Origin: Pseudomonas anguilliseptica
Lineage (GTDB): Bacteria; Pseudomonadota; Gammaproteobacteria; Pseudomonadales; Pseudomonadaceae
NCBI RefSeq assembly: GCF_900105355.1
Contig: NZ_FNSC01000001.1
Location: 3,410,001-3,474,000, forward strand
DNA: 64,000 nucleotides
Direction: 5' to 3'
This document shows, piece by piece, positions 3,687-40,432 of this stretch. The notes beneath the pieces are model-generated. The model was not told the DNA's origin. It worked only from the letters and a program-made list of their open reading frames with translations, and ran no database searches. The translations under genes were made by a program, and so were the position numbers. Position 1 is the stretch's first letter. Each line of letters begins with the position of its first letter.

Positions 3687-5182
3687 CAGTCCTCCCGATC
3701 CGCGTTGGCCGTCAACTGGCCCCAGGTGCCTGCGATGAACAGCAGGCGGGTCAGGGTCTGCTGCAAGGCCTGGTCATCCATCAACGGGTACGCCTCGGCC
3801 AACAAGCCCAGGACTTCGGTCTCCGAACGTCCGCGCAGCAGTGCTTCAATCACTGGTGCTATAGCCTGTTGGGCTTGCTCCTGGAGCAGCTCAGCCGGCA
3901 GGTTGTCGATTACCTGGTCGAGCGCAACCTGATCTAGGATCGGCCGCAGGGTCGGCTCGGCAAAAGCCGGATCAGCCTCAACTGCAGGCGCTTCAGCAAT
4001 GTCCCCGTCTTCCAGGTTGTACATGCGCTTCCAGTAGGCCGGGGTGAACTTCACGCCTGCATCGGTGAGGTTCTTGTCGCGCTCGGCCAGGGTCTTGTCG
4101 ATCTCCTCCTGTTCCCACAGCTCATACACCGGGGCCGCGACGTTTTCGCCGAAGTTGAGGTCGACCACCAGGCGAATGGCGGCATTGAGGGTGGCGGCGA
4201 CGATGCTCTTGTCACCATCGCGGATGTCCTTGGCGACCTCCAGGCCCGCTGTGGCACTGGCTCTATTGCTGTTGGCCTCGGTGGTCTGGTTCTGGCCGAG
4301 CAGGCCCACGTTGATCTCGCTGCGGCAATAAACCAGCAACTCACGGAATACATCGGCACTGGCACTCTTGCCTGCCGCTTCGAGAATCTCAACGCTGGAG
4401 TCATCCGGGATCGCTGCCACGGCGTCCTGCACCATGGCCTCCAGGCTGTCCAGCAGCAGGTCGGTCTCGTGGGTGGCTGCGCCACGCGGGTGCTTGCCGA
4501 TCACCCAGGGCGAGCCGTACTTCTCGGTGAACTGCACCCAGAACTTCAGGCCACCCTTCATGAACACCACAGGCCAGAAGCACATGGACAGATCGGCGAA
4601 GCCGTAAGGGTTGTTGTAGGTCGCATCCTGGCGCGCCACCACAAAACGTTGTGGGTCGCACAGCTCGCCCTGCAGGCCAGCATCACGGGCCCGGAAGCGC
4701 AGCTGGTTGTCCTGGTCGTAGAGGAACCACTCAGCCGGCTTGCCCAGCAGATCCTCGGGTACCAGGTGCAGGCCCAGCGGACGCCACATCAGCTCAATAG
4801 GCTGGAAGCCAAACAACGGCGCATCGAGCAGCTCGCGGATGATGCGGTCAAGATCGAGGTCGGCTAACCAGTCGCTGATGAAACGCTCGACCCGCACCGG
4901 GGCATTACCACGCTTGAGGTCGCGCTCCAGAGCAAGCACCGCAGACTTGCGGCGACGGATGTTGCCGCCCACCAAGGCCTGACTGCGCAAGTCGCGGTAG
5001 ACGGTGATGTCTTTGCCTTGAGCCTTGAGAATCGGGTCGGGGTTGGGCAGGTACATGCCCAATGCTTGGGAGTCGAAGCTGCGACCCCGGCTGGCGATAT
5101 GGTCGGTGAGTCCCTTACCTGAAGCGGGCTCACTGAAACGGACGAACTCGGTGGGGCTAACCCACAGACCTTTACTGCTCAT
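3686..5182 (-). CDS. phage portal protein (DUF935, Mu gp29-like)
   Basis: A 498-residue protein matching the DUF935 family of Mu-like portal proteins: LGMYLPNPDPIL near the N-terminus, a basic RRRKSAVLALER segment and the LFGFQPIELMWRP motif near residue 120. The middle contains KYGSPWVIGKHPRG and LLGQNQTTEA. The ATG at 5182 overlaps the terminase stop (ATGA); longer in-frame extensions upstream lie inside the terminase gene. The portal ring is the DNA entry channel of the head. Confidence 0.88.
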   Translation of the reverse strand: MSSKGLWVSPTEFVRFSEPASGKGLTDHIASRGRSFDSQALGMYLPNPDPILKAQGKDITVYRDLRSQALVGGNIRRRKSAVLALERDLKRGNAPVRVERFISDWLADLDLDRIIRELLDAPLFGFQPIELMWRPLGLHLVPEDLLGKPAEWFLYDQDNQLRFRARDAGLQGELCDPQRFVVARQDATYNNPYGFADLSMCFWPVVFMKGGLKFWVQFTEKYGSPWVIGKHPRGAATHETDLLLDSLEAMVQDAVAAIPDDSSVEILEAAGKSASADVFRELLVYCRSEINVGLLGQNQTTEANSNRASATAGLEVAKDIRDGDKSIVAATLNAAIRLVVDLNFGENVAAPVYELWEQEEIDKTLAERDKNLTDAGVKFTPAYWKRMYNLEDGDIAEAPAVEADPAFAEPTLRPILDQVALDQVIDNLPAELLQEQAQQAIAPVIEALLRGRSETEVLGLLAEAYPLMDDQALQQTLTRLLFIAGTWGQLTANADRED

Positions 5183-6507
5183 GCGTACCCCTGGGTCATG
5201 TGCGCGCCCTGACGTGGGCGACGGGATTTGACGGTGACCGGGCCATTGGGGCCGTCGCTGGCGTTGAGAGCGAGGAAACACGCCCAGGTGCGGTCGGCGT
5301 GGCCGGCTGAGTCGGACTCGGCAATAAAGCGCGGGGCTCCGGTTGGGCCAGCGACTTTCTGTAATTTGTGCAGGTCGTTGCGCAGCTCGGTGTCGCCCAA
5401 GGGAATGCGGATCTGCATGTCCTGGAACACTTCCTTGCCACGGGTGGCCATGGTCAGTTTGCTGGCGGTACCGAAGATCACACCTTCGACACGCATGGAG
5501 CCATGGCGACGTTTGGCATCCTCTACTGGCTTCTCACCCATACCGGTCTGATCCATGCAGCAGCGCAACACGCGGTAACGGGTGAACACGTCATCCAGCA
5601 GTGCATCCTGCTCGTGAAACGGAGCCCGCTTGCGGGTGATGATCTCCCGCGTCCAGTACACGTCACCGATTTGCTCAAGCACCCAAATAACAAACAGGTC
5701 ATTGCGCGCGCCGATATCGACGCCAATGAAGCACGGCCCACCGGTATAGAGATCAGGCCGTCCGGCCTGGTCATGCTCGACATCGTTGATCAGTTCGTAG
5801 CTCAACCAGGAGCTGGCTTCGTCCAGCCACTTCAGTTCGAATTCCTGGGCCCAGGCGTCCTCGTCGTTGAGCGCCGCGCGCATCTCCTCGACGTTGCGAG
5901 GTAGGCCATCCGCTACTGCACGGTGGATGTCGACTACATGCCGCGACCAGACATCGGCGAGCTTCTTGTCGGTCATCAGCTCGTAGAACTTGTTGCCCTT
6001 GCCGTTGGGCGTGCTGGTGATGCGTAGCTTCCAGCCGTTGGAAATCACAGGAAACAGCGCCGTCCAGATCTTGCGGCTGTCCTGGTGGAAGGCGAATTCG
6101 TCCAGGAACACGTTGGCACTGAAGCCACGAGCGGTGTCGGGATTGGCCGGCAACGCGGTGATCCTGGAACCACCCGGCAGCACAACATCGAGCATGGTGA
6201 AACGCTCACCGTTGCTGCCCTTGAACTCGCCCTCGATCTCCTGCACCGCCATGTTGTAGGCGCGGCAGTGCTTCTTCACGCCTTCCTCCATGGCCTCCTT
6301 GGCCTGGCGCTCGCCTCGGGACAGGATCACCCAGCGAGTGCGGCCACCGCGCGACTCGACGTCGAAGCAGTCATCGACGATCTCCAGGGTACTGGTGAAC
6401 GTCTTGCCGGTCTGGCGGGCGAACATGGCGATTTTGAAGCGCTCACGATCAAGCAGCCATTGCTTCTGGTAGTTGAATAACTGGATAGCAGGCTGCTTGT
6501 CGCTCAT
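5179..6507 (-). CDS. phage terminase large subunit (Mu gp28-like)
   Basis: A 442-residue DNA packaging motor. The Walker A-like ARQTGKT lies at residues 30–36 and the Walker B VFLDE at 133–137 (catalytic Glu 137), followed by the SNGWKLRITSTPNGKG coupling motif around 157–171. A C-terminal RNase H-like nuclease is marked by IGVDIGARND (Asp 264 and 270). It overlaps the small terminase upstream and the portal gene downstream by 4 bp each. Confidence 0.92.
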   Translation of the reverse strand: MSDKQPAIQLFNYQKQWLLDRERFKIAMFARQTGKTFTSTLEIVDDCFDVESRGGRTRWVILSRGERQAKEAMEEGVKKHCRAYNMAVQEIEGEFKGSNGERFTMLDVVLPGGSRITALPANPDTARGFSANVFLDEFAFHQDSRKIWTALFPVISNGWKLRITSTPNGKGNKFYELMTDKKLADVWSRHVVDIHRAVADGLPRNVEEMRAALNDEDAWAQEFELKWLDEASSWLSYELINDVEHDQAGRPDLYTGGPCFIGVDIGARNDLFVIWVLEQIGDVYWTREIITRKRAPFHEQDALLDDVFTRYRVLRCCMDQTGMGEKPVEDAKRRHGSMRVEGVIFGTASKLTMATRGKEVFQDMQIRIPLGDTELRNDLHKLQKVAGPTGAPRFIAESDSAGHADRTWACFLALNASDGPNGPVTVKSRRPRQGAHMTQGYA

Positions 6508-10135: not shown

Positions 10136-10834
10136 TCAAAACCAAAGACCGCCAACAAGCAGCCCAAATATAAAAAGGCCCGCTGCATTCCAGCGGTAGG
10201 TGATCAGAAACTCCCTCAGTTCCATCTTCGACGCCGTGGGCGGGGCCGCACTTGCCACAACTGGCTTGGCCTCGAACTGCAAGATGAACTCCAGCACCTT
10301 GGGCAGTTCCGAGCGCTTGAGCAGGTTGAGCTGGGTACGCCCGAAGGTAAGCTCACAGAAATTGCTCAACGCATGCCGAGCATCTTTTTCGTCAGCCGCC
10401 CGCAGGATTTTGGAGATCAGTCTCTTCCTATCGGCCTCTTCCTGCAGGCGCTCAAGTCGTGCCTGGATAACACCCTTGGCCTGGACAAACTGGGTCGCGG
10501 TTACCTCGTCCAGACCGGTCACGCTGAGCTGGGTGTGCACCTCACGCCAGACATCACGCGGATCATCCCCCAGCTCTTCGCACTGAGCACGCAGTTGATG
10601 CAATTCCTTGCGCTGGGCCGGCAGCAGGGCTCGCTCATCCACCCGCTCACCGATGGTGAGCTGGGTACCAAAATTGATGTTGCCTGTGTTGGTCTTGGTC
10701 TTGGTCTTGATCTTGATGCCAGGCAGTGAAGTAGGTTGTTTACCATCGCCCCGGCTGTCGAAGTTGAACTCGTAGAGGTCGCGGCCCGCGACTCTATTTT
10801 TCTCGCCATCTACCTCAATGTCATTGTCGCTCAC
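10136..10834 (-). CDS. tail-anchored protein with NxxAGRD motif, unknown function
   Basis: A 232-residue protein starting at GTG 10834, 7 bases after a perfect AAGGAG; the longer frame runs into the repressor gene. Residues 13–19 are NRVAGRD, the same motif as at the end of the upstream repressor (NKTAGRD). Then come a KTKTKTNTGN polar stretch, a charged helical middle (about 55–190) and one membrane segment at the very C-terminus (AAGLFIFGLLVGGLWF). It could be a membrane-tethered accessory or immunity protein. No family recognised. Confidence 0.7.
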   Translation of the reverse strand: MSDNDIEVDGEKNRVAGRDLYEFNFDSRGDGKQPTSLPGIKIKTKTKTNTGNINFGTQLTIGERVDERALLPAQRKELHQLRAQCEELGDDPRDVWREVHTQLSVTGLDEVTATQFVQAKGVIQARLERLQEEADRKRLISKILRAADEKDARHALSNFCELTFGRTQLNLLKRSELPKVLEFILQFEAKPVVASAAPPTASKMELREFLITYRWNAAGLFIFGLLVGGLWF

Positions 10835-10844
10835 GAACTGCTCC

Positions 10845-11261
10845 TTACTCGTGATAGTCCCTACCTGCTGTCTTATTTCCCGAGCCGGTGACCACAACGC
10901 CACCGCCACTCTTAGCTGGCTTCTTCGCTACATCACCTGTCAGCAGGGATGCGAGTAGCTGCTTTTTCTTGGCTGCACTGAGCCCGCGATAGCTGTCGAG
11001 CAGCAACTGCTCGTCGGGAGGGAGTTGCGGGGTCGCACCGACTGAACGCTGCCCTGTCAGGACGAATACCACATCGACTCCGGTAACTGCCAAGCGGCCG
11101 ATTAACTCTGCAGTAGCTCGCTTTCTACCTGAACAAACATCGCGCAAACCCTGACTAGTTGATTCGCCGATAACTCGCGAGGCGTCCGCAAGCGAAAGCC
11201 CGAGACGGTCAAGCTCATCGCGCAGGTGGATGTGTATAGCTTCCACTGAATTGCTTGGCAC
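10845..11261 (-). CDS. putative prophage repressor (helix-turn-helix)
   Basis: A 138-residue protein starting at GTG 11261. The N-terminal 70 residues look like a helix-turn-helix of the XRE/Cro type (LSLADASRVIGESTSQGLRDVCSGRKRATAELIG is the region, residues 18–51). The C-terminus ends VTGSGNKTAGRDYHE. It faces away from the Ner-like gene, the standard position of the lysogeny repressor in Mu-like phages. A palindrome at 11263–11277 touches its start, suggesting autoregulation. It is followed at 11 bp by the tail-anchored gene, with which it probably forms an operon. Confidence 0.75.
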   Translation of the reverse strand: MPSNSVEAIHIHLRDELDRLGLSLADASRVIGESTSQGLRDVCSGRKRATAELIGRLAVTGVDVVFVLTGQRSVGATPQLPPDEQLLLDSYRGLSAAKKKQLLASLLTGDVAKKPAKSGGGVVVTGSGNKTAGRDYHE

Positions 11262-11283
11262 TGTGTAACCCTTACACCATTAT
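11255..11283 (+). promoter_or_regulatory. probable prophage early promoter with operator in the spacer
   Basis: TTGGCA (11255–11260) and CATTAT (11278–11283) are separated by exactly 17 bp. The palindrome GTGTAACCCTTACAC (11263–11277; arms of 6, spacer CCC) fills this spacer. A protein bound there would block rightward early transcription. The same palindrome lies one base upstream of the repressor start codon, so it could also control the repressor. Promoter and operator calls are from sequence only. Confidence 0.6.
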
Positions 11284-11363
11284 TAATCCACACCGTCCCA
11301 CCACGAACGGCAACTAAAGCGGCACCGATACAGGCGCCAGACCCCCTCAAAAGGAGTTCCATC

Positions 11364-11597
11364 ATGGAGCTACGTACCCCAGACCAAGCCCGAGCCGAGC
11401 TGAAAGCCAAGGGCATCTCGATTACCCAATGGGCAATCGCTAACAAGTTCTCGCCCAACCTCGTTTTCGAGGTGCTGGGTGGCCGCAAGAAGTGCGTCCG
11501 TGGCCAGGCTCACGAGATCGCCATCAAGCTCGGCCTCAAGGACGGCGAGATCTGCAAAGACCCGGCTACCGCACTTGAAAGTCGCTTTGTTGCTTGA
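11364..11597 (+). CDS. Ner-like early regulator (BcepMu gp16 family)
   Basis: A 77-residue protein whose core ITQWAIANKFSPNLVFEVLGG, then RKKCVRGQAHEIAIKLGLK, matches the gp16 family of BcepMu-like phages: a small helix-turn-helix protein transcribed divergently from the repressor. It is likely to dampen early and repressor promoters, as Ner does in Mu. AAGGAG lies 8 bases before the ATG. It is the first gene of the rightward early unit. Confidence 0.85.
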   Translation: MELRTPDQARAELKAKGISITQWAIANKFSPNLVFEVLGGRKKCVRGQAHEIAIKLGLKDGEICKDPATALESRFVA

Positions 11598-11605
11598 GGC
11601 CCGCC

Positions 11606-11797
11606 ATGAACCTCTGCGATCAAACCATCCAGTACCTGGGCCAGATGCAACAAGAGTGTCTGCTGGCCAACGGTAAGCAACCGAGAGGCATCACTCTCAG
11701 TGCACCTGGCGAATCATGCGCAGCAAGCGCAGCTCAGCCGTCAGCGTCTCTTGATCTTTCCCTGGCAGCTCCGACAGCCGCTGGAGATCAGCAATGA
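11606..11797 (+). CDS. possible small early protein
   Basis: A 63-codon frame starting at ATG 11606, 8 bases after the Ner-like stop, with GAGG in the right place. The first 30 residues (MNLCDQTIQYLGQMQQECLL...) look like a normal small phage protein; the rest is Ala/Ser-rich and overlaps an opposite-strand frame that looks at least as good. It may be a decayed gene. No family recognised. Confidence 0.4.
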   Translation: MNLCDQTIQYLGQMQQECLLANGKQPRGITLSAPGESCAASAAQPSASLDLSLAAPTAAGDQQ

Positions 11798-11939
11798 GCG
11801 CCGTTTTGTTTACCGCTCCGGTCTTGGTCAAGTGCCCCACCAGCAGGGCAAAAGCCCCTTCTAGAGCCGCCAAGTTGCCGCCTTGCCTGTCCAGCCGCTC
11901 TTGTTCGTCCATCGCGATAGTACCTGTTCTGTCAGTCAA
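11697..11939 (-). CDS. possible small protein antisense to early genes
   Basis: An 80-codon frame starting TTG 11939 (GAGG 4 bases upstream), or 71 codons from ATG 11912. The product is well-formed and helical (NLAALEGAFALLVGHLTKTG, then TALIADLQRLSEL). It runs against the early operon and overlaps the 3' part of the preceding frame. Amino-acid composition favours it over the opposing frame, but both starts have weak ribosome sites. Confidence 0.45.
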   Translation of the reverse strand: MTDRTGTIAMDEQERLDRQGGNLAALEGAFALLVGHLTKTGAVNKTALIADLQRLSELPGKDQETLTAELRLLRMIRQVH

Positions 11940-11953
11940 TTTACCTCATTCAA

Positions 11954-11968
11954 TTGTGCATGGCACAA
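11954..11968. promoter_or_regulatory. perfect palindrome TTGTGCATGGCACAA
   Basis: Six-base arms around ATG, located 70 bp before the next early gene (12039) and just outside the start of the antisense frame. It differs from the operator at 11263. It is a plausible operator for one of the early DNA-binding proteins; there is no direct evidence for binding. Confidence 0.4.
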
Positions 11969-12038
11969 GGCCATTGCCAATGCGCAAACCCGGCCTTTGT
12001 TTGGAAGGCGTTCCAGCACATCAGCGGAGGGCCTTCCA

Positions 12039-12518
12039 ATGACCCCAGCACAATGGAAACGCGTCCAGCCGATCACGCTGCGCGACGCCCTCAAGCTGTG
12101 CCAGCAGCACGCCAAGGAGCGCTTCAACTTCAGCATCGAGCGCATCGCTGCGCTGATGGGCCTGGATGACCACTGGACGCTCTACAAGTGGATCGCCAAC
12201 GGCCGCATGCCGGCTGTGCTGCTCCCGGCTTATGAGCAAGCCTGCGGCATCAACCTGGTCACCCGCTGGCTGGCCGGCAGCGGCGGCAAGCTGCTGATCG
12301 ACGTGCCCACCGGGCGTACCACCAGCGCCCACGACATCCAGACCTTGCAGGCCACCCTCCATGAGGCCACAGGCCAGCTGATGGGCTTCTACTCGGACAA
12401 CGCCGAAGCCAGCGCCACCCTGGCTGCCATCCAGGCCGGCCTTGAAGAGCTGGCTTGGCACCGGGGCAACGTGCAACAGCACGCCCAGCCGCAACTTGAA
12501 CTTGGAGAGAAGCCATGA
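12039..12518 (+). CDS. early phage DNA-binding-like protein
   Basis: A 159-residue protein. The N-terminal half contains LRDALKLCQQHAKERFNFSIERIAALMG and HWTLYKWIANGRMP, a probable helix-turn-helix. The C-terminal half is helical (SAHDIQTLQATLHEATGQLMGF). GGAGG lies 8 bases before ATG 12039; a longer upstream extension has no ribosome site. It is the first of a chain of genes overlapping by 4 bp. It resembles small regulators found before the transposase in BcepMu-type phages; function unknown. Confidence 0.65.
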   Translation: MTPAQWKRVQPITLRDALKLCQQHAKERFNFSIERIAALMGLDDHWTLYKWIANGRMPAVLLPAYEQACGINLVTRWLAGSGGKLLIDVPTGRTTSAHDIQTLQATLHEATGQLMGFYSDNAEASATLAAIQAGLEELAWHRGNVQQHAQPQLELGEKP

Positions 12519-12832
12519 GCAGTGAAGACAAATACACCTCGGACCAGGTGCAGCGGGTGCTACGCGTAGTGCTGGCCCTGGGTGGCAATGAGTTCCGCGG
12601 AATGTTGCTGAAAGAGGTGGCCACCGCCGCCGACTGCACCGAGAGCAATGCCCTGCGTGCTTTGGAAAACCTGCGCACAGCAGGGTTCGCAGAGCGCAGC
12701 GCCTATGACGACAAGCGTTGGATGCTTGGCCCGCGCCTGGTGCAGATCGCTTTTGCCTTCGACAGCGCCCTGCAGAAAGCCAAGCGCGAACTGGACGAGC
12801 GCCGCCAGCGCTTCACCCGTAACCCCAATTAA
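12515..12832 (+). CDS. winged-helix phage protein (IclR-like N-terminal HTH)
   Basis: A 105-residue protein with a winged helix: VQRVLRVVLALGGNEFRGMLLKEVATAADC, then TESNALRALENLRTAGFAER, and a wing strand KRWMLGPRLVQIAF, as in the DNA-binding half of IclR regulators. The effector domain is absent. The start overlaps the preceding stop (ATGA). It probably acts on phage DNA during the early phase. Confidence 0.7.
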   Translation: MSSEDKYTSDQVQRVLRVVLALGGNEFRGMLLKEVATAADCTESNALRALENLRTAGFAERSAYDDKRWMLGPRLVQIAFAFDSALQKAKRELDERRQRFTRNPN

Positions 12833-12844
12833 GAGAGACCACAT

Positions 12845-13834
12845 ATGGCCCGCCAAAAGACCACCACGGAGTTCACTCCCATGGCCGAGATCAGCCCGGA
12901 GGCGTTGCAAGAGGAAGCCGGCACCCTGGGTATGCTCGGTACGATTGCCCAAGGTATGCAGGAGGAGCGCGACCTAGTAAACCAACTGCTCGGCCAGGCA
13001 CAGATGGCTGACGCATATGCCAAATTTTCGGTCACGGTGACCACTTCTAAGCTGGCCTATGTCAAAGAAAACAAGCTGTACCGGGCTTTAAAGGGAATTA
13101 AAAGCGGTCACGGTGACCAGTTCTTAACCGGTACTTGGGAAGAGTTCTGCGATCTGCTAGGCCGCTCGCGTGAGCAAGTAGACCGCGATATCGCCAACCT
13201 CCGCACCTTCGGCGAAGAAGCCCTTGAATCCATGTCTCGCATGGGCATCGGCTATCGCGAGATGCGCCAATACCGACGCCTGCCTGAAGATCAGCAAGCA
13301 GCCCTGATCGAGGTCGCCAAGACCGGTGACAAGGACGCCTTCGTCGAGCTGGCCGAGGAGATCATCACCAAGCATGCCGCCGAGAAGGCCGAGCTGAGCA
13401 AGAAGCTCGAAGACAGCCAGGCCGACTACGACGCTTTGTCGAAAATGGAAGCCGACACCAGCAAGAAGCTGCGTGACACCAAGCTGGAACTGGAGCGCAA
13501 CCTGCTGCGCACGCTGCCCTGGGATGAGCGCATCGCACCGCTGAAGGAAGAGATCACCGCTCGCCAGTGCCTGATCGACGAATCCCTCGCGCGCCACCTG
13601 CAGGCCGTCGACGCCCTGGATGCCTGGCTGACCAATGAGCTGACCTCGCGCCCGGACTACGACCCCGAGTCCCCGGTCGATCTGCCGCCTGAAGCGCTGA
13701 CCGTTCTGGTGCATCTGGAGGATGCCATCCAGCGCACTGCGCACCTGGTGGCAGGTGCCATGAATGACCTGCAGAACCGCTTCGGTGCCGATCTGGCCCA
13801 GGCACGGCAGCACCTGCTGCAAGTAGGCGAGTGA
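12845..13834 (+). CDS. early phage protein with HTH-like core and coiled coil
   Basis: A 329-residue protein. Residues about 75–135 (KENKLYRALKGIKSGHGDQF, then WEEFCDLLGRSREQVDRDIANLR) look like a DNA-binding segment. This is followed by a Glu/Lys-rich coiled coil at about 165–220 and a helical C-terminus. I do not recognise a named family; it recalls plasmid/phage KfrA- or ParB-associated proteins in layout. The CDS itself contains two identical 13-bp palindromes and one AT-rich repeat copy. It directly precedes the transposase gene, whose start overlaps its stop. Confidence 0.6.
   Translation: MARQKTTTEFTPMAEISPEALQEEAGTLGMLGTIAQGMQEERDLVNQLLGQAQMADAYAKFSVTVTTSKLAYVKENKLYRALKGIKSGHGDQFLTGTWEEFCDLLGRSREQVDRDIANLRTFGEEALESMSRMGIGYREMRQYRRLPEDQQAALIEVAKTGDKDAFVELAEEIITKHAAEKAELSKKLEDSQADYDALSKMEADTSKKLRDTKLELERNLLRTLPWDERIAPLKEEITARQCLIDESLARHLQAVDALDAWLTNELTSRPDYDPESPVDLPPEALTVLVHLEDAIQRTAHLVAGAMNDLQNRFGADLAQARQHLLQVGE
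13030..13042. repeat. palindrome GGTCACGGTGACC, copy A
   Basis: Six-base arms around a central G. An identical copy lies 76 bp downstream (13106–13118). Copy A spans the third base of one codon through Val-Thr-Val-Thr, whereas copy B is read Gly-His-Gly-Asp. Conservation in two frames points to selection on the DNA itself, for example as a protein-binding site. Confidence 0.55.
13086..13104. repeat. AT-rich repeat, copy 3, inside a CDS
   Basis: CTTTAAAGGGAATTAAAAG is the reverse complement form of the CTTTTAATNNNNTTTAAAG element found before the protease and lysis blocks. It ends 1 bp before palindrome copy B. In the CDS it is read Leu-Lys-Gly-Ile-Lys. Confidence 0.45.
13106..13118. repeat. 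palindrome GGTCACGGTGACC, copy B
   Basis: Identical to copy A at 13030–13042 but in a different reading frame of the same gene, immediately after the AT-rich repeat copy 3. Confidence 0.55.
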
Positions 13835-34873: not shown

Positions 34874-37501
34874 ATGGACCGACTTCAGCCGTGTGTATTG
34901 CCTGCCAATGGAGTGCTGCGCCAGAGCCTGCTGGAGCTGCTGGCGCGCAGTGAGCGCTTTGCCCTGACTTTGCTGCTGGCTCCGGCTGGCTCGGGAAAGT
35001 CGACGCTGTTGCAACACTGGCGCGGCTGTTGCCCAGCGAGGATGGTGCATTACCCACTGCAAGCGCGGGACAACGACCCGCTGTGTTTTTTCCGCCGCCT
35101 GGCTGACAGCATCCGCGCTCAGGTAGGCGATTTCGATACGTCCTGGTTCAACCCTCTGGCGGTGGCTTCGAGCCTGTCGCCGCAGCTATTGGGCGAGCTG
35201 CTCGCTGATGCCTTGGCGCGGGTCAACGGGCCACTGTTTATCGTGCTGGATGATCTTCAGTGGATCGGGTCGCGCAGCATTCTTGAGGTGATGGCGGCGC
35301 TACTCGACAAGCTGCCAGCCCATGTCCACCTGATCATCGCCAGCCGTAATCACCCAGGCTTTGCCCTGAGTCAGCTGAAGCTGGAAAACCGCCTGCTGTG
35401 CATTGATCAGCACGACCTGCGCCTGTCGGTCGAGCAGGTGCAGCAGCTCAATAGCCACCTGGGTGGTCAGGCGCTGAGTCAGGAGTATGTCGACAGCCTG
35501 CTGGGCATGACCGAAGGCTGGGTGGCGGGGGTGAAGATTGCCCTGCTGGCCTATGCGCGCTTCGGCACTCAGGCGCTGCAGCGCTTTAACGGCAGCCAGC
35601 CAGAAATCGTCGACTACTTTGGCCATGTGGTGCTGCGCCAGTTGCCGCCGAACCTGCGTGAATTTCTGCTGTGCAGTGGTCTGTTCGAGCGCTTTGACGG
35701 TGCACTTTGCGATCATGTGATGCAGCGCAGTGGCTCGGCGTTGCTGCTGGAGGAATTGGCTGAGCGTCAGCTGTTCCTGCTGCCGGTGGAAAATCAACCA
35801 GGCTGGTTCCGTTTTCATGTCCTGTTGCAGGACTTTCTCTGTCGCCGCCTGCAAGTCGAAGAATATGCGCGCCTGGATCAGCTGCACAGTCGCGCCGCCG
35901 ACTATTACCTGAGCCTGGGCGAGTATGAGCAGGCGTTGCAGCATGCCCGGTACTGTAGCGACCAGCACATCTTCCTTGGCCTGCTGGAGCATTGCTGCGC
36001 GTCATGGGTGCGCAGTGGGCAGTTTGGCGACATTCTGCGCTGGTTGGAGCCGCTGCCAGAGACGCAGCTGCTGGCGCAACCCAAGTTGCTCGGCTGGCTG
36101 ATTGCCGCGCTGTCGCTGTCGCGGCGTTTTCATCAGGCGCATTACCACCTGGAATTACTCGATGGCCTGCAGGAGCACGCGCCGGGTGCGAATCTGGAGC
36201 CGGCCACGCGGCAGTTCCTCGCCCTGTTGCTCGGCTTGTTCGAGCAGGACAAGGACTTTGAGCCGCCGCCGGCCTGGCGTGACCTGCTGGGTGCGGGGCA
36301 GGCCCTGGAAATTCGCGCCTGCACCCTGGCGGTGATTGCCTATCAGCACCTGTTGGAGGCCCGTCTGCAGGATGCGATTCGCTTCGCCAGCGAGTCCAAA
36401 CAGTTGCTCGCGCAATGTGGGCATAGCTTTCTGGAAAGTTACACCGATCTGATTATCGCGCTGTGCCACCGCAATGCCGGACGCGCCACCCATGCGCGCA
36501 AGCAGGTGTGTCTGGACTACCAGAGCACCGATTCTGTGTCTCCGGCCTGGGTCAATCGCGCCACGGCCATGGTGGTGGTGTTGTATGAGCAGAATCAGCT
36601 GGTTGAGGCGCAGCAGCTGTGTGACGAGCTGATGGCGATGGTCAATTCATCTTCGGCCACCGAGGCGATTGCCACGGTCTACATCACCTTGTCGCGGTTG
36701 CTGCATCGCCAGCAGCAGACGGCGCGTGCCAGCCGCTTGCTCGATCAGCTGTCGTGCATTCTGCAGTTGGGCAACTACGCGCGGTTTGTCAGCCAGGTGG
36801 CCCAGGAAAGCATGCGCCAGGCGTACCTGAGCGGTAAGAGTGCCTGCATGGATGCCGTAGCTCAGCGCTACGATTTGCCTGGACGGTTGCAGGCCGGGGA
36901 GTGGGAGCGCGTGCGCGCCTATGACGAAAGTTGGGAGCGCCAGGGTTTGGCGTGCGTGTACTGGTTGCAGGCACGCGGTGCACAGGCGCAGGCCGAGCGG
37001 ATTCTCAAGGTGCTGGCGGCCTCGTTGCGGCAAAGCGAGATGCGTGCGCGGCTGTTGATCGTCGAAGCCAACCGCCTGGTGCTGGCGGCGTCCAGTCAGA
37101 GCAAGAACCAGCAGCTGGCGGCACTGGGCGGTCTGGTCGAGACCTATGGCATCGTCAATATCAACCGCTCGGTATTCGATGAAGCGCCAGGTTTTGCTGC
37201 AGGTGTGCTGGATCTGGCACAGTCCGGCTTGTTGGTGGTGCCGGAAAAATACCGTGAGCACTACGCAGAGTTTCTCCAGGGCATTCAGGTTGCGCCGCCG
37301 CTTGATGCGCTGGCCGGCGGCCTGCTGACCGGACGTGAGGTGGAAGTATTCGAGTACCTGCTTAGCGGCTTGTCGAACACCCAGATCAGCGACAAGACCG
37401 GTATTGCCTTGTCCACCACCAAGTGGCACCTGAAAAACATCTACTCCAAGCTCAACGTCTCCAGCCGCACCGAGGCGATTCTCGCCGTCCGGCCGCGCTA
37501 G
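34874..37501 (+). CDS. LAL-type LuxR regulator (MalT-like ATPase with C-terminal HTH)
   Basis: An 875-residue STAND-family regulator. It has Walker A APAGSGKST at 36–44, Walker B FIVLDDLQW near 120, a winged-helix and large helical TPR-like middle (about 250–790) where an inducer would bind, and a LuxR helix-turn-helix at about 810–870 (LLTGREVEVFEYLLSGLSNT, then KWHLKNIYSKLNVSSRTEAI). The next gene, 136 bp downstream in the same direction, is the haem dioxygenase-like gene, its likeliest target. The ATG at 34874 has a modest ribosome site. Its ligand cannot be predicted. Confidence 0.9.
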   Translation: MDRLQPCVLPANGVLRQSLLELLARSERFALTLLLAPAGSGKSTLLQHWRGCCPARMVHYPLQARDNDPLCFFRRLADSIRAQVGDFDTSWFNPLAVASSLSPQLLGELLADALARVNGPLFIVLDDLQWIGSRSILEVMAALLDKLPAHVHLIIASRNHPGFALSQLKLENRLLCIDQHDLRLSVEQVQQLNSHLGGQALSQEYVDSLLGMTEGWVAGVKIALLAYARFGTQALQRFNGSQPEIVDYFGHVVLRQLPPNLREFLLCSGLFERFDGALCDHVMQRSGSALLLEELAERQLFLLPVENQPGWFRFHVLLQDFLCRRLQVEEYARLDQLHSRAADYYLSLGEYEQALQHARYCSDQHIFLGLLEHCCASWVRSGQFGDILRWLEPLPETQLLAQPKLLGWLIAALSLSRRFHQAHYHLELLDGLQEHAPGANLEPATRQFLALLLGLFEQDKDFEPPPAWRDLLGAGQALEIRACTLAVIAYQHLLEARLQDAIRFASESKQLLAQCGHSFLESYTDLIIALCHRNAGRATHARKQVCLDYQSTDSVSPAWVNRATAMVVVLYEQNQLVEAQQLCDELMAMVNSSSATEAIATVYITLSRLLHRQQQTARASRLLDQLSCILQLGNYARFVSQVAQESMRQAYLSGKSACMDAVAQRYDLPGRLQAGEWERVRAYDESWERQGLACVYWLQARGAQAQAERILKVLAASLRQSEMRARLLIVEANRLVLAASSQSKNQQLAALGGLVETYGIVNINRSVFDEAPGFAAGVLDLAQSGLLVVPEKYREHYAEFLQGIQVAPPLDALAGGLLTGREVEVFEYLLSGLSNTQISDKTGIALSTTKWHLKNIYSKLNVSSRTEAILAVRPR

Positions 37502-37637: not shown

Positions 37638-40382
37638 ATGTCGGTATGGGTCACTTGGCCAGCTTTGACCAAGCTGGGAACGTTGGGCGTAGTCTCCGGA
37701 CTACTGGTGCTGGCGGTCGAGCGCCAGGCATTGTTCGAGAACAACCTCTTCGATGTCGAAAACTACACGGGCTATAACGCCGATATCACCTGCGATGCGC
37801 GCAGCCTGGCGGCCCGTACAGAGGACGGCACCTGCAACATTCTCAGCAACCCGGCCGAGGGCTCGGTGTATCGGCGCTTTGGCCGTAACGTCAATCCGGC
37901 GCTGACCCAGGGTGAAACCACCACCTTGCTCAGCCCCAATCCGCGTGAAGTGAGTAACAGCCTGATGGCGCGTGAGGAGTTCAAGCCGGCCCCGAGCCTG
38001 AACTTTATCGCCGCTGCCTGGATTCAATTTATGGTGCACGATTGGTTCGACCACGGCCCGAATGCCGACGCCGACCCGATCCAGTTTCCCTTGCCGCCGG
38101 GCGATGTGCTGGGCAGTGGCAGCATGTCGGTCAAACGCACTCAGCCTGATCCAAGTCGCAGCGGTGCCGATGCCGGTAAGCCGCAAACCTATCGCAACCA
38201 CAACACCCACTGGTGGGACGGCTCGCAGCTATATGGCAGCAGCAAGGAAACCAACGACAAGGTGCGCGCGTTTGTTGACGGTAAGCTCAAGGTCAATGCA
38301 GACGGCACCCTGCCTACCGAACTGCTCAGCGGTAAACCGGTAACCGGGTTCAACGAAAACTGGTTGCTTGGCCTGAGCATGCTGCATCAGCTGTTCACCC
38401 TCGAACACAACGCCATCGCCAGCAAACTCAAGCAGAAGTACCCGACGCAGAGCGATCAGTGGCTGTATGACCGCGCGCGGCTGATCAACTCGGCGCTGAT
38501 GGCCAAGATCCACACCGTAGAATGGACTCCGGCGGTGATCGCCAACCCAATCACCGAACGCGCCATGTACTCCAACTGGTGGGGCCTGCTCGGTCAGGGC
38601 GGCCCGCGTGACGACTTCCAGGCCGAAGTGCGTATGCTGCAGGCGGACCTGGCGCGCTCCGACTCCTTTGTCAAACGCATCCTCGGTTTCGACCCGAATG
38701 TGGCGCCGGGTGTCGGCAACAGCGCCATCGACCACGCCCTGACCGGCATCGTCGGTTCCACCGCGCCGAACAATTACGGCGTGCCGTTCACTCTCACCGA
38801 AGAGTTTGTCGCGGTGTACCGCATGCACCCGCTGATGCGCGACAACGTGCAGGTGTATGACATCGGCTCGAATCAGGTCTCACGCACCATCGCGCTGCGG
38901 AACACCCGTGATCGCGACGCCGAGAACCTGCTCAACGACGAGCGCCCGGAACGCCTGTGGTACTCCTTCGGCATCACCAACCCAGGTTCGCTGACGCTGA
39001 ATAACTACCCCAACTTCCTGCGTAACTTGTCGATGCCGCTGGTGGGCGATATCGACCTGGCCGCCATCGATGTGTTGCGCGACCGCGAACGTGGCGTGCC
39101 GCGCTACAACGAGTTCCGCCGGCAGATCGGCCTCAACCCGATCGGCAAATTCGAGGACCTGACCAAGGACGCTGCGACCCTCGCCGAGCTCAAGCGCCTG
39201 TACAACAATGACATTGAGAAGATCGACACCCTGGTCGGCCAGTTGGCGGAAACCGTGCGTCCTGAGGGCTTTGCCTTCGGTGAAACGGCGTTCCAGATAT
39301 TTATCATGAACGCTTCACGGCGCCTGATGGCCGACCGCTTCTACACCAAGGACTACCGTCCAGAGGTGTACACCCCGGAAGGGATCGACTGGGTCGAGCA
39401 CACCACCATGGTCGATGTGCTACGTCGGCATAACCCGCAGCTTCAAACCAGTCTGGCCGGCGTGGAAAACGCCTTCAAACCCTGGGGCCTGAATATTCCG
39501 GCGGACTACGAAAGCTGGCCTGGGGCCAACAAGCAGGAAAACCTCTGGGTCAACGGCGCGCTGCGTACCCAGTACGCGGTAGACGAACTGCCGGCGTTGC
39601 AGCGCGTCAACATCGGCGGGCTGATTGGCTCGATTCTGTGGAACAAGGTGAAGGTTCGCAGCGACGTGGCGCCAGCCGGTTATGAGAAGCCGATCCACCC
39701 TCATGGTGCAATGGCCAAGGTCAAGTTCGTCGCAGTGCCCAATAACCCCTACAGCGGGCTGTTCCAGGGTTCTGACAACGGTCTGCTGCGGCTGTCGGTC
39801 ACCGGTGATCCAGCGGATCGCGGCTTTGCGCCGGGGCTGGCGTGGAAGGCCTTTGTCGATGGTAAACCGTCGGAAAACGTTTCCGCGCTGTATACCCTGA
39901 GCGGGCAGGGCGGTAACCATAACTTCTTCGCCAATGAGCTGTCGCAGTACGTGGTGCCGGAAGCCAATGACACCCTGGGCACCACCATTCTGTTTTCGGC
40001 GGTGAGCCTGAAGCCGACGCTGCTGCTGCTCAACGACATGGCAGAAGTCACCCAGGCCGGCGCTACTGTGGCCAAACCCAAGGCGCCGACGCAGATCTAC
40101 TTTGTGCCGCGCCCTGAACTGCGCAACCGCTTCGCCAGCACTGCGCATGATTTCCGTGCGGACCTGCTGACCCTGAATGCCGGCACCAAGGTCTATGACG
40201 TGTACGCTACCTCGATGGAGATCAAAACCTCGATCATTCCGTCGATCAGCCGCAACTACGCCGCGCAACGGCGTAACAGTGCGGTGAAGATTGGTGAGAT
40301 GGAACTGACCTCGGCCTTTATCGCCTCGGCGTTCGGCGATAACGGGGTGTTCTTCAAGCACCAGCGTAACGAAGACAAATAA
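37638..40382 (+). CDS. animal-type haem peroxidase/dioxygenase with C-terminal catalase-like region
   Basis: A 914-residue protein. An N-terminal hydrophobic segment (LTKLGTLGVVSGLLVLAV, residues about 10–27) is a signal or anchor. The peroxidase domain (about 30–650) has distal His134 (MVHDWFDHG), THWWDGSQLYGSS, and proximal His397 in VAVYRMHPLM. Tyr394, three residues before that His, sits where cyclooxygenase Tyr385 and alpha-dioxygenase tyrosine lie, which favours a fatty-acid dioxygenase over a plain peroxidase. Residues about 680–790 (IHPHGAMAKVKF, LLRLSVTGDP, GFAPGLAWKAFVDGKPS, GQGGNHNFFANE) resemble the N-terminal half of catalase-like enzymes, with His687 at the distal His. The C-terminus is too short for the canonical RxxxY haem ligand. 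GGGAG precedes the ATG. Confidence 0.85.
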   Translation: MSVWVTWPALTKLGTLGVVSGLLVLAVERQALFENNLFDVENYTGYNADITCDARSLAARTEDGTCNILSNPAEGSVYRRFGRNVNPALTQGETTTLLSPNPREVSNSLMAREEFKPAPSLNFIAAAWIQFMVHDWFDHGPNADADPIQFPLPPGDVLGSGSMSVKRTQPDPSRSGADAGKPQTYRNHNTHWWDGSQLYGSSKETNDKVRAFVDGKLKVNADGTLPTELLSGKPVTGFNENWLLGLSMLHQLFTLEHNAIASKLKQKYPTQSDQWLYDRARLINSALMAKIHTVEWTPAVIANPITERAMYSNWWGLLGQGGPRDDFQAEVRMLQADLARSDSFVKRILGFDPNVAPGVGNSAIDHALTGIVGSTAPNNYGVPFTLTEEFVAVYRMHPLMRDNVQVYDIGSNQVSRTIALRNTRDRDAENLLNDERPERLWYSFGITNPGSLTLNNYPNFLRNLSMPLVGDIDLAAIDVLRDRERGVPRYNEFRRQIGLNPIGKFEDLTKDAATLAELKRLYNNDIEKIDTLVGQLAETVRPEGFAFGETAFQIFIMNASRRLMADRFYTKDYRPEVYTPEGIDWVEHTTMVDVLRRHNPQLQTSLAGVENAFKPWGLNIPADYESWPGANKQENLWVNGALRTQYAVDELPALQRVNIGGLIGSILWNKVKVRSDVAPAGYEKPIHPHGAMAKVKFVAVPNNPYSGLFQGSDNGLLRLSVTGDPADRGFAPGLAWKAFVDGKPSENVSALYTLSGQGGNHNFFANELSQYVVPEANDTLGTTILFSAVSLKPTLLLLNDMAEVTQAGATVAKPKAPTQIYFVPRPELRNRFASTAHDFRADLLTLNAGTKVYDVYATSMEIKTSIIPSISRNYAAQRRNSAVKIGEMELTSAFIASAFGDNGVFFKHQRNEDK

Positions 40383-40401: not shown

Positions 40402-40432
40402 AAAAGGCCTCGGTAGATACCGAGGCCTTTTT
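40402..40432. terminator. bidirectional terminator between dioxygenase and gspD
   Basis: AAAAGGCCTCGGTA and TACCGAGGCCTTTT form a perfect 14-bp inverted repeat around GA, with A- and T-tracts on either side. It can end both the rightward dioxygenase transcript and the leftward gspC–gspD transcript. Confidence 0.93.

Follow-up and report, generated by a model that had tools for sequence, protein, structure and literature searches.

We analysed a 64,000-nucleotide stretch of the Pseudomonas anguilliseptica genome (contig NZ_FNSC01000001.1, positions 3,410,001 to 3,474,000; hereafter the window) and focus here on one of its genes, which encodes a 914-residue protein of two domains (Table 1). By strong homology, the N-terminal domain is predicted to be a tyrosine-radical-type haem dioxygenase of the peroxidase-cyclooxygenase superfamily, in the alpha-dioxygenase (alpha-DOX) class. 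The C-terminal domain is, in a structural model, a catalase fold carrying distal-type residues but lacking the proximal Tyr. The two-domain architecture itself is well supported.

The sole Pfam family found in the protein is An_peroxidase (PF03098, residues 60–603). In a PDB sequence search with the 914-residue protein, for which 60 of 68 matches were listed, the closest solved structures are the alpha-DOXs of rice (375 bits) and Arabidopsis (348 bits), and the best cyclooxygenase scores 47 bits. The original prediction, made from the sequence alone, had described this domain as cyclooxygenase-type. A Tyr-radical haem dioxygenase of that superfamily stands, but the scores, together with the residues described below, rule out a cyclooxygenase. 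Linoleate diol synthase is absent among the listed matches, no direct comparison with it having been made, and alpha-DOX-specific residues argue against that identity as well.

A residue-level comparison is provided by CalDOX, the experimentally characterised alpha-DOX of Calothrix parietina, for which PMC8720084 lists 16 residues. All 16 occur at the stated numbers in WP_015173931.1, a 'peroxidase family protein' encoded on a plasmid of Calothrix sp. PCC 6303, and we therefore take this protein to be CalDOX, an identification made by residue numbers. Its sequence and that of the window protein agree at 48% of positions across 560 residues. Fourteen of the 16 residues are retained in the window protein, the changes being Val18 to Leu25 and Ala310 to Ser312. 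The two Phe residues flanking the radical Tyr are present (F390 and F555, equivalent to CalDOX F354 and F522), and the positioning role of His292 and Thr297 is that given for CalDOX H290 and T295 in the same source (PMC8720084). Distal His134, proximal His397 and Tyr394 lie where the original prediction had placed them, and the haem-site motifs F-M-x-H-D-W and V-Y-R-M-H occur in 121/121 sequences (the query and its 120 best homologues), with no case of Tyr394 varying while His397 is kept. The cited sources describe alpha-DOXs as converting a free fatty acid to the (R)-2-hydroperoxide, which breaks down spontaneously to the Cn-1 aldehyde and CO2 (PMC9305512), and the plant enzymes as being regarded as monotopic membrane proteins (PMC8720084).

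The C-terminal domain has no Pfam or NCBIfam match in the query, and PF00199 gave no match above its curated cut-off either there or in the 76 aligned members scanned against Pfam. A PDB profile search at E values up to 10 likewise found no catalase by sequence, and membership of the catalases on the strength of these three sequence searches was accordingly rejected. PDB matches to interferon-activable protein 202, at E of about 0.03, and a Pfam match to Herpes_U55 were taken as chance. Comparison by hhalign with a profile of catalase-like proteins, built from the N-terminal domains of a second type of fusion described below and from divergent Pseudomonadota proteins, gave an E value of 0.003 over 205 columns at a probability, by hhalign's own estimate, of only 10.5%. 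The score was matched by 0/100 column-permuted profiles and also exceeded that of the reversed profile; true catalases were matched at E 2e-18 by the catalase-like proteins, which served as a positive control. This case for catalase homology, made from sequence only, is weak, so that the assignment depends chiefly on the structural model. Residues 620–914 take a catalase-type fold in that model, in line with the originally proposed fusion to a catalase-like module, with a root-mean-square deviation of 4.0 Å over 192 residues at 15% identity in the structural comparison.

Conservation within the domain was examined in an alignment of 210 rows (118 fused, 92 other). Wherever a letter stands, His687, Arg718, Ser720, Lys737, Gln757, Phe839, Arg840 and Gly886 are invariant; His687 is kept in 118/118 fused and 91/91 other proteins, and Lys684 in 118/118 and 90/91 (208/209). 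His687, Arg718, Ser720 and Gln757 are retained even in a relative of only about 31–33% identity. The predicted motifs IHPHG (containing His687), RLSVTGDP, GFAPGLAWKAF and NHNFFAN are all present. Alignments of weak significance put Lys684, His687 and Ser720 at the positions of the catalase Arg, distal His and Ser, and Arg718 at that of the haem-contacting Arg. The distal Asn of catalases is not matched, Gln757 standing in its place by an alignment that is below significance overall. On the proximal side, the chain stops where the catalase proximal helix would come, the end of the model aligning with residues just before the proximal Tyr. As the original prediction noted, 227 residues follow His687 without an R-xxx-Y site; none is conserved in relatives, and any R-xxx-Y at all occurs in the last 30 residues of 11/121 sequences. 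A displaced proximal Tyr at position 911 was ruled out, because only some relatives have Tyr there; the window protein has Asn, and others carry His, Val or Ser.

Table 1. Features of the two-domain gene and its immediate surroundings (positions within the window).
Feature	Position	Strand	Basis or remark
Whole gene, 914-residue two-domain protein	37638..40382	+	Intact open reading frame, ATG start
Alpha-DOX domain, residues 1–617	37638..39488	+	PF03098 60–603, E 7e-107; rice 4kvj, 8e-111
N-terminal hydrophobic segment, residues 9–27, possible membrane-contact helix	37662..37718	+	Kyte-Doolittle maximum at residue 9
His134, distal haem His	38037..38039	+	Aligned with CalDOX H131; 121/121 sequences
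His292 and Thr297, carboxylate and alpha-carbon positioning	38511..38528	+	Aligned with CalDOX H290/T295
Tyr394 (radical) and His397 (proximal haem His)	38817..38828	+	Aligned with CalDOX Y358/H361
Arg562, carboxylate-binding	39321..39323	+	Aligned with CalDOX R529
Fusion joint, residues 616–619	39483..39494	+	Calothrix alpha-DOX alignment stops at 616, standalone-domain alignment starts at 619
Catalase-fold domain, residues 620–914	39495..40379	+	Mainly structural model
Lys684-Pro-Ile-His687, putative equivalent of catalase Arg-x-x-His (distal His)	39687..39698	+	Weakly significant alignments
Arg718-Leu-Ser720, putative equivalent of catalase R-F-S	39789..39797	+	210/210; alignments of weak significance
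Gln757, opposite catalase distal Asn	39906..39908	+	210/210; underlying alignment below significance
Asp838-Phe839-Arg840 motif	40149..40157	+	F839, R840 210/210; D838 208/210
Phe-Phe-Lys-His908 C-terminal tail	40350..40361	+	H908 117/117 fused, 90/92 others
Intrinsic-terminator-like hairpin	40402..40431	+	13-pair stem, 20 bp past stop codon
MalT-type LuxR regulator gene, directly upstream	34874..37501	+	GerE and AAA_16 domains

The same domain pair was sought in other genomes. A protein search scored 8000 candidates, of which 7438 passed E ≤ 0.001, whether fused or unfused; the listing of 120 homologues includes 119 that span 97% or more of the query and 118 with lengths of 890–970 residues. 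A species-genome search, from which the best 80 of 122 related loci were kept, found 76/80 aligning over more than 700 residues, the remaining four being partial. This recurrence, with the invariance of His687, Arg718 and Ser720, argues that the architecture is not due to chance. Hosts include Pseudomonas, Atopomonas, Moraxellaceae, Alcanivorax, Marinobacter, Thalassolituus, Oleispira, Bermanella and relatives; the label Pedobacter at one locus belongs to a metagenome bin. The fused form is patchily distributed. Fifteen of 398 genomes in a phylum sample match the window protein, five of them over the whole length, all in the window's genus, and the C-terminal domain occurs in two of 369 genomes in a class sample, once as a standalone protein. 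Within the genus, 119 genomes were examined, and six of them, counting that of the window, have an alpha-DOX-type PF03098 gene as judged by E-value. PF03098 is found only in other reading frames in 23/119 (for example L113-L116), mostly very long ones (893 to 4129 residues among those listed) whose layout differs from that of the window's gene.

Both kinds of module are paired in several arrangements in different bacteria. On the Calothrix plasmid, one strand carries, in order, the CalDOX-like gene, a gene for a 110-residue hypothetical protein, a transposase gene, a standalone gene for the C-terminal domain (P0186), a GMC oxidoreductase gene and a gene for a patatin-like phospholipase; this split version is one record, from one plasmid. 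P0186 is 49% identical to window residues 619–910 and the Calothrix alpha-DOX aligns with residues 21–616. Since the one alignment begins at 619 and the other ends at 616, the joint in the fused protein has almost no linker. The domain also stands alone in cyanobacteria and in Pseudomonas veronii. No alpha-DOX was seen among the neighbours of the standalone relatives in P. veronii and in genome G730, which were read from annotation and first residues with no search run there. Apparent lipoprotein signal peptides start three standalone relatives (L106:7878-8858, on a P. veronii plasmid, P0203 and P0230), so this catalase-type fold may act outside the cytoplasm too. A tblastn search of a phage collection with another standalone relative, P0160, gave no match at E 1e-5.

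A second fusion has the opposite order. N-terminal PF00199 domains precede the alpha-DOX domain in proteins of Rhizobium phaseoli (942 residues, 28.1 bits) and Phyllobacterium (949 residues, 26.5 bits; cut-off 25), and profile and motif place the two domains in this order in an open reading frame of Nonomuraea as well. Among 120 listed homologues of the Rhizobium protein, each covering at least 90% of it, 104 carry both PF00199 and PF03098 annotations, counted by eye; hosts include Rhizobium, Mesorhizobium, Streptomyces, Nonomuraea, Actinomadura and Mycobacterium. The proximal motif R[KRQ]xxY lies within residues 250–480 in 120/121 of these proteins, and a stricter NRxR pattern is found in 103/121. 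A tree of 36 alpha-DOX domains separates the C-terminal fusions, as one clade (98/97), from the N-terminal ones, as a second clade (100/100), and five standalone alpha-DOXs, that of Calothrix included, cluster with the latter (98/94); a divergent sequence from genome G383 has a very long branch. The distinct alpha-DOX clades, opposite order and different catalase-like families point to separate fusion events. Opposite-order fusions with RxxxY kept are widespread in Rhizobiales and actinomycetes (L153:4876-7704, L155:4870-7719, L157:3762-6713, P0244-P0364), and appear in some sources as 'Animal haem peroxidase/Catalase'.

In G383 (L149), the divergent alpha-DOX relative measures 1048 residues, and a 414-residue catalase-like open reading frame (5182-6423, minus strand) starts at the end of its gene on the same strand. 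This smaller protein keeps RRGLY, its distal His seemingly missing when judged by eye. Nearby on the opposite strand, a 911-residue open reading frame (10655-13387, plus strand) has a catalase-like part without a Pfam match at E 0.01. The window's own genome encodes a separate, divergent catalase-like protein of 377 residues with a RKAVY motif (L134, G000:C1:4227661-4228011).

At the locus itself, a GGGAG stretch lies upstream of the ATG at 37638, its end 8 bases before the start. The hairpin beyond the stop codon is a pattern match only, such sites not being enriched in the stretch (2, against a mean of 3.4 in shuffles), and Rfam at its gathering threshold gave no match near the gene. The upstream regulator has 875 residues and scores under the MalT cut-off. 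A MalT-type LuxR gene on the same strand lies within 1.5 kb upstream in 53/80 related loci, a few seen partially; it was not seen in 27/80, three of which have no upstream sequence. Pseudomonas, Alcanivorax and Marinobacter keep this regulator beside the fused gene. The downstream genes encode a type II secretion system and are conserved in a minority of loci (GspD 29/80, GspE 27/80).

We propose that the protein is a bifunctional alpha-oxidation enzyme whose C-terminal domain processes the hydroperoxide in cis, a reading that we consider the best explanation and about as likely as not. Given the strong homology to alpha-DOXs, a radical on Tyr394, formed via the His397-ligated haem, would take a C2 hydrogen from a free fatty acid, and O2 would be added at C2 to give the (R)-2-hydroperoxy acid. 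The catalase-fold domain could then act on this labile product before it decarboxylates spontaneously, most likely by reduction or rearrangement at a putative His687/Ser720/Gln757 pocket. Less certainly, other enzymes would convert the products to 2-hydroxy acids, 2-oxo acids or shortened aldehydes. A route of this kind would need a step from 2-hydroperoxide to 2-hydroxy acid, and the catalase-fold partner is a candidate for it.

Genes near alpha-DOXs could supply further steps, releasing fatty acids and turning 2-hydroxy acid into 2-oxo acid and aldehyde. In a handful of loci, not counted systematically, we noted flavin adenine dinucleotide (FAD)-linked or GMC oxidoreductases (L105, L145, L154, L156), patatin or alpha/beta hydrolases (L105, L154, L155, L156) and thiamine pyrophosphate (TPP)-dependent enzymes (L155, L156), and noticed no such partner at L146, L147 and L153. 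The FAD-linked oxidase and TPP-decarboxylase genes near the Streptomyces alpha-DOX would fit the steps from 2-hydroxy acid through 2-oxo acid to aldehyde. At this locus (L156, a plasmid of Streptomyces sp. NBC_00069), the alpha-DOX gene lies among genes for benzoylformate decarboxylase, an FAD-linked oxidase, a P450 and an alpha/beta hydrolase, a run that looks like a fatty-acid alpha-oxidation cluster. An FAD-binding oxidase gene, recognised by Pfam, directly adjoins another unfused alpha-DOX gene (L145:8701-10128), and a similar one, judged by first residues only, lies at L148:5192-6580.

Several observations weigh against a hydroperoxide-processing role for the C-terminal domain. CalDOX and LepDOX are active without such a domain (PMC8720084), and the 2-hydroperoxide decarboxylates unaided (PMC9305512). 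Profile-profile comparison of the domain with true catalases by hhalign is not significant (E 0.15), and haem binding in the manner of catalases is unlikely because the domain has no proximal Arg-xxx-Tyr. No catalase-like open reading frame lies near six unfused alpha-DOX loci (L145-L148 and L154, with flanks of about 5–7 kb, and L156, with about 1 kb on one side). Finally, the Calothrix partner genes are not found beside the fused gene: patatin, AraC and two hypothetical genes occur in 0/80 loci and the GMC oxidoreductase in 1/80.

In the strongest rival reading, which we consider rather unlikely, the C-terminal domain would be a catalase fold without haem or catalytic function, serving oligomerisation, membrane docking or fatty-acid delivery to the dioxygenase. 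It would account for the missing proximal Tyr and Arg, for a chain that ends ahead of the proximal helix and for the weak kinship with catalases by sequence. A structural role alone, however, does not need the conservation of His687, Arg718, Ser720 and Gln757 at the distances described above, and the domain also stands alone in cyanobacteria and, with its apparent lipoprotein signal, in P. veronii. The original suggestion that the module may be degenerate or structural was right about the absent Tyr, but is not favoured as a reading because the distal-type residues are nearly invariant.

More doubtful is a role in managing H2O2 or peroxide tone, in which the domain would remove peroxide that inactivates the Tyr-radical enzyme or admit a priming amount. 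The catalase fold would suit this role, as would the activation of alpha-DOX haem by H2O2 reported in PMC9305512, and the FAD-linked or GMC oxidoreductases adjoining some alpha-DOX genes are possible H2O2 sources. However, the window's fusion lacks the catalase proximal Tyr and has Gln in place of the distal Asn. Moreover, the coral allene oxide synthase cAOS shares its haem residues with catalase yet is unable to scavenge H2O2 (PMC5617202), and a catalase fold alone therefore does not imply H2O2 removal. Lastly, the blank Pfam, NCBIfam and PDB searches and the structural superposition at 4.0 Å and 15% identity would also fit a convergent beta-barrel unrelated to catalase, which we regard as very improbable.

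Returning to a bifunctional alpha-oxidation enzyme, a more specific version is speculative, and we hold it doubtful: a Tyr-less catalase fold, either binding haem via the nearly invariant His908 or haem-free, would convert the 2-hydroperoxy fatty acid in cis, and catalase-fold partners would have been recruited independently at least twice. A fold that keeps the distal side and has lost the proximal Tyr poses directly the question of whether haem still binds. The pairing recurs with the modules in differing order, with more than one catalase-like family and also as split genes, which suggests that what becomes of the 2-hydroperoxide is controlled in some bacteria. If so, alpha-DOXs would be a further dioxygenase class with a catalase-fold partner, after lipoxygenase and the 10S-dioxygenase. 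Alpha-DOXs are sought for fatty aldehyde production (PMC8720084, PMC9305512), and a partner from nature able to alter their product could therefore be practically useful.

Dioxygenase/catalase-fold pairs are already known from corals and Nostoc, and alpha-DOX/catalase fusions are already in databases. Judging by title and the start of the abstract, we found no paper on a bacterial alpha-DOX/catalase fusion among the listed matches in the open-licence literature, nor a description there of an enzymatic branch of bacterial alpha-oxidation acting on the 2-hydroperoxide. The word catalase occurs in 0 places in PMC8720084 and in 1 unrelated place in PMC9305512, and the available part of the review PMC4420034 names alpha-dioxygenase in 0 places.

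The window protein shares its haem, radical and carboxylate-binding residues with the alpha-DOXs of rice (4kvj), Arabidopsis (4hhr) and Calothrix (CalDOX), but alignments with these enzymes stop at 616–617, and the window protein continues into its second domain. Identity with the 33-kDa catalase-related protein of Mycobacterium avium paratuberculosis (3e4y), which retains the proximal Tyr, is only 15%. In the coral allene oxide synthase-lipoxygenase and hydroperoxide lyase-lipoxygenase fusions, a catalase-related, hydroperoxide-processing domain is joined to the dioxygenase that supplies it (PMC5617202). These differ in that the dioxygenase is a lipoxygenase and the catalase domain is N-terminal, with Tyr353 and Asn137 kept; the cAOS residues given in that source are R64, H67, R102, N137 and Y353 (PMC5617202). 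The linoleate 10S-dioxygenase of Nostoc punctiforme and its catalase-related 10S-hydroperoxide lyase likewise pair a cyclooxygenase-superfamily dioxygenase with a catalase-related partner that transforms its product, but are two separate genes, and oxygenation is at C10, not C2 (PMC13049297). The coral parallel drawn by the original prediction is apt, although nearer ones exist in the split Calothrix gene pair and the opposite-order fusions. The latter, in Rhizobiales and actinomycetes, differ from the window protein in having an N-terminal, Pfam-recognised catalase domain with R[KRQ]xxY kept and an alpha-DOX domain of a separate clade, but likewise combine both kinds of module within a single polypeptide.

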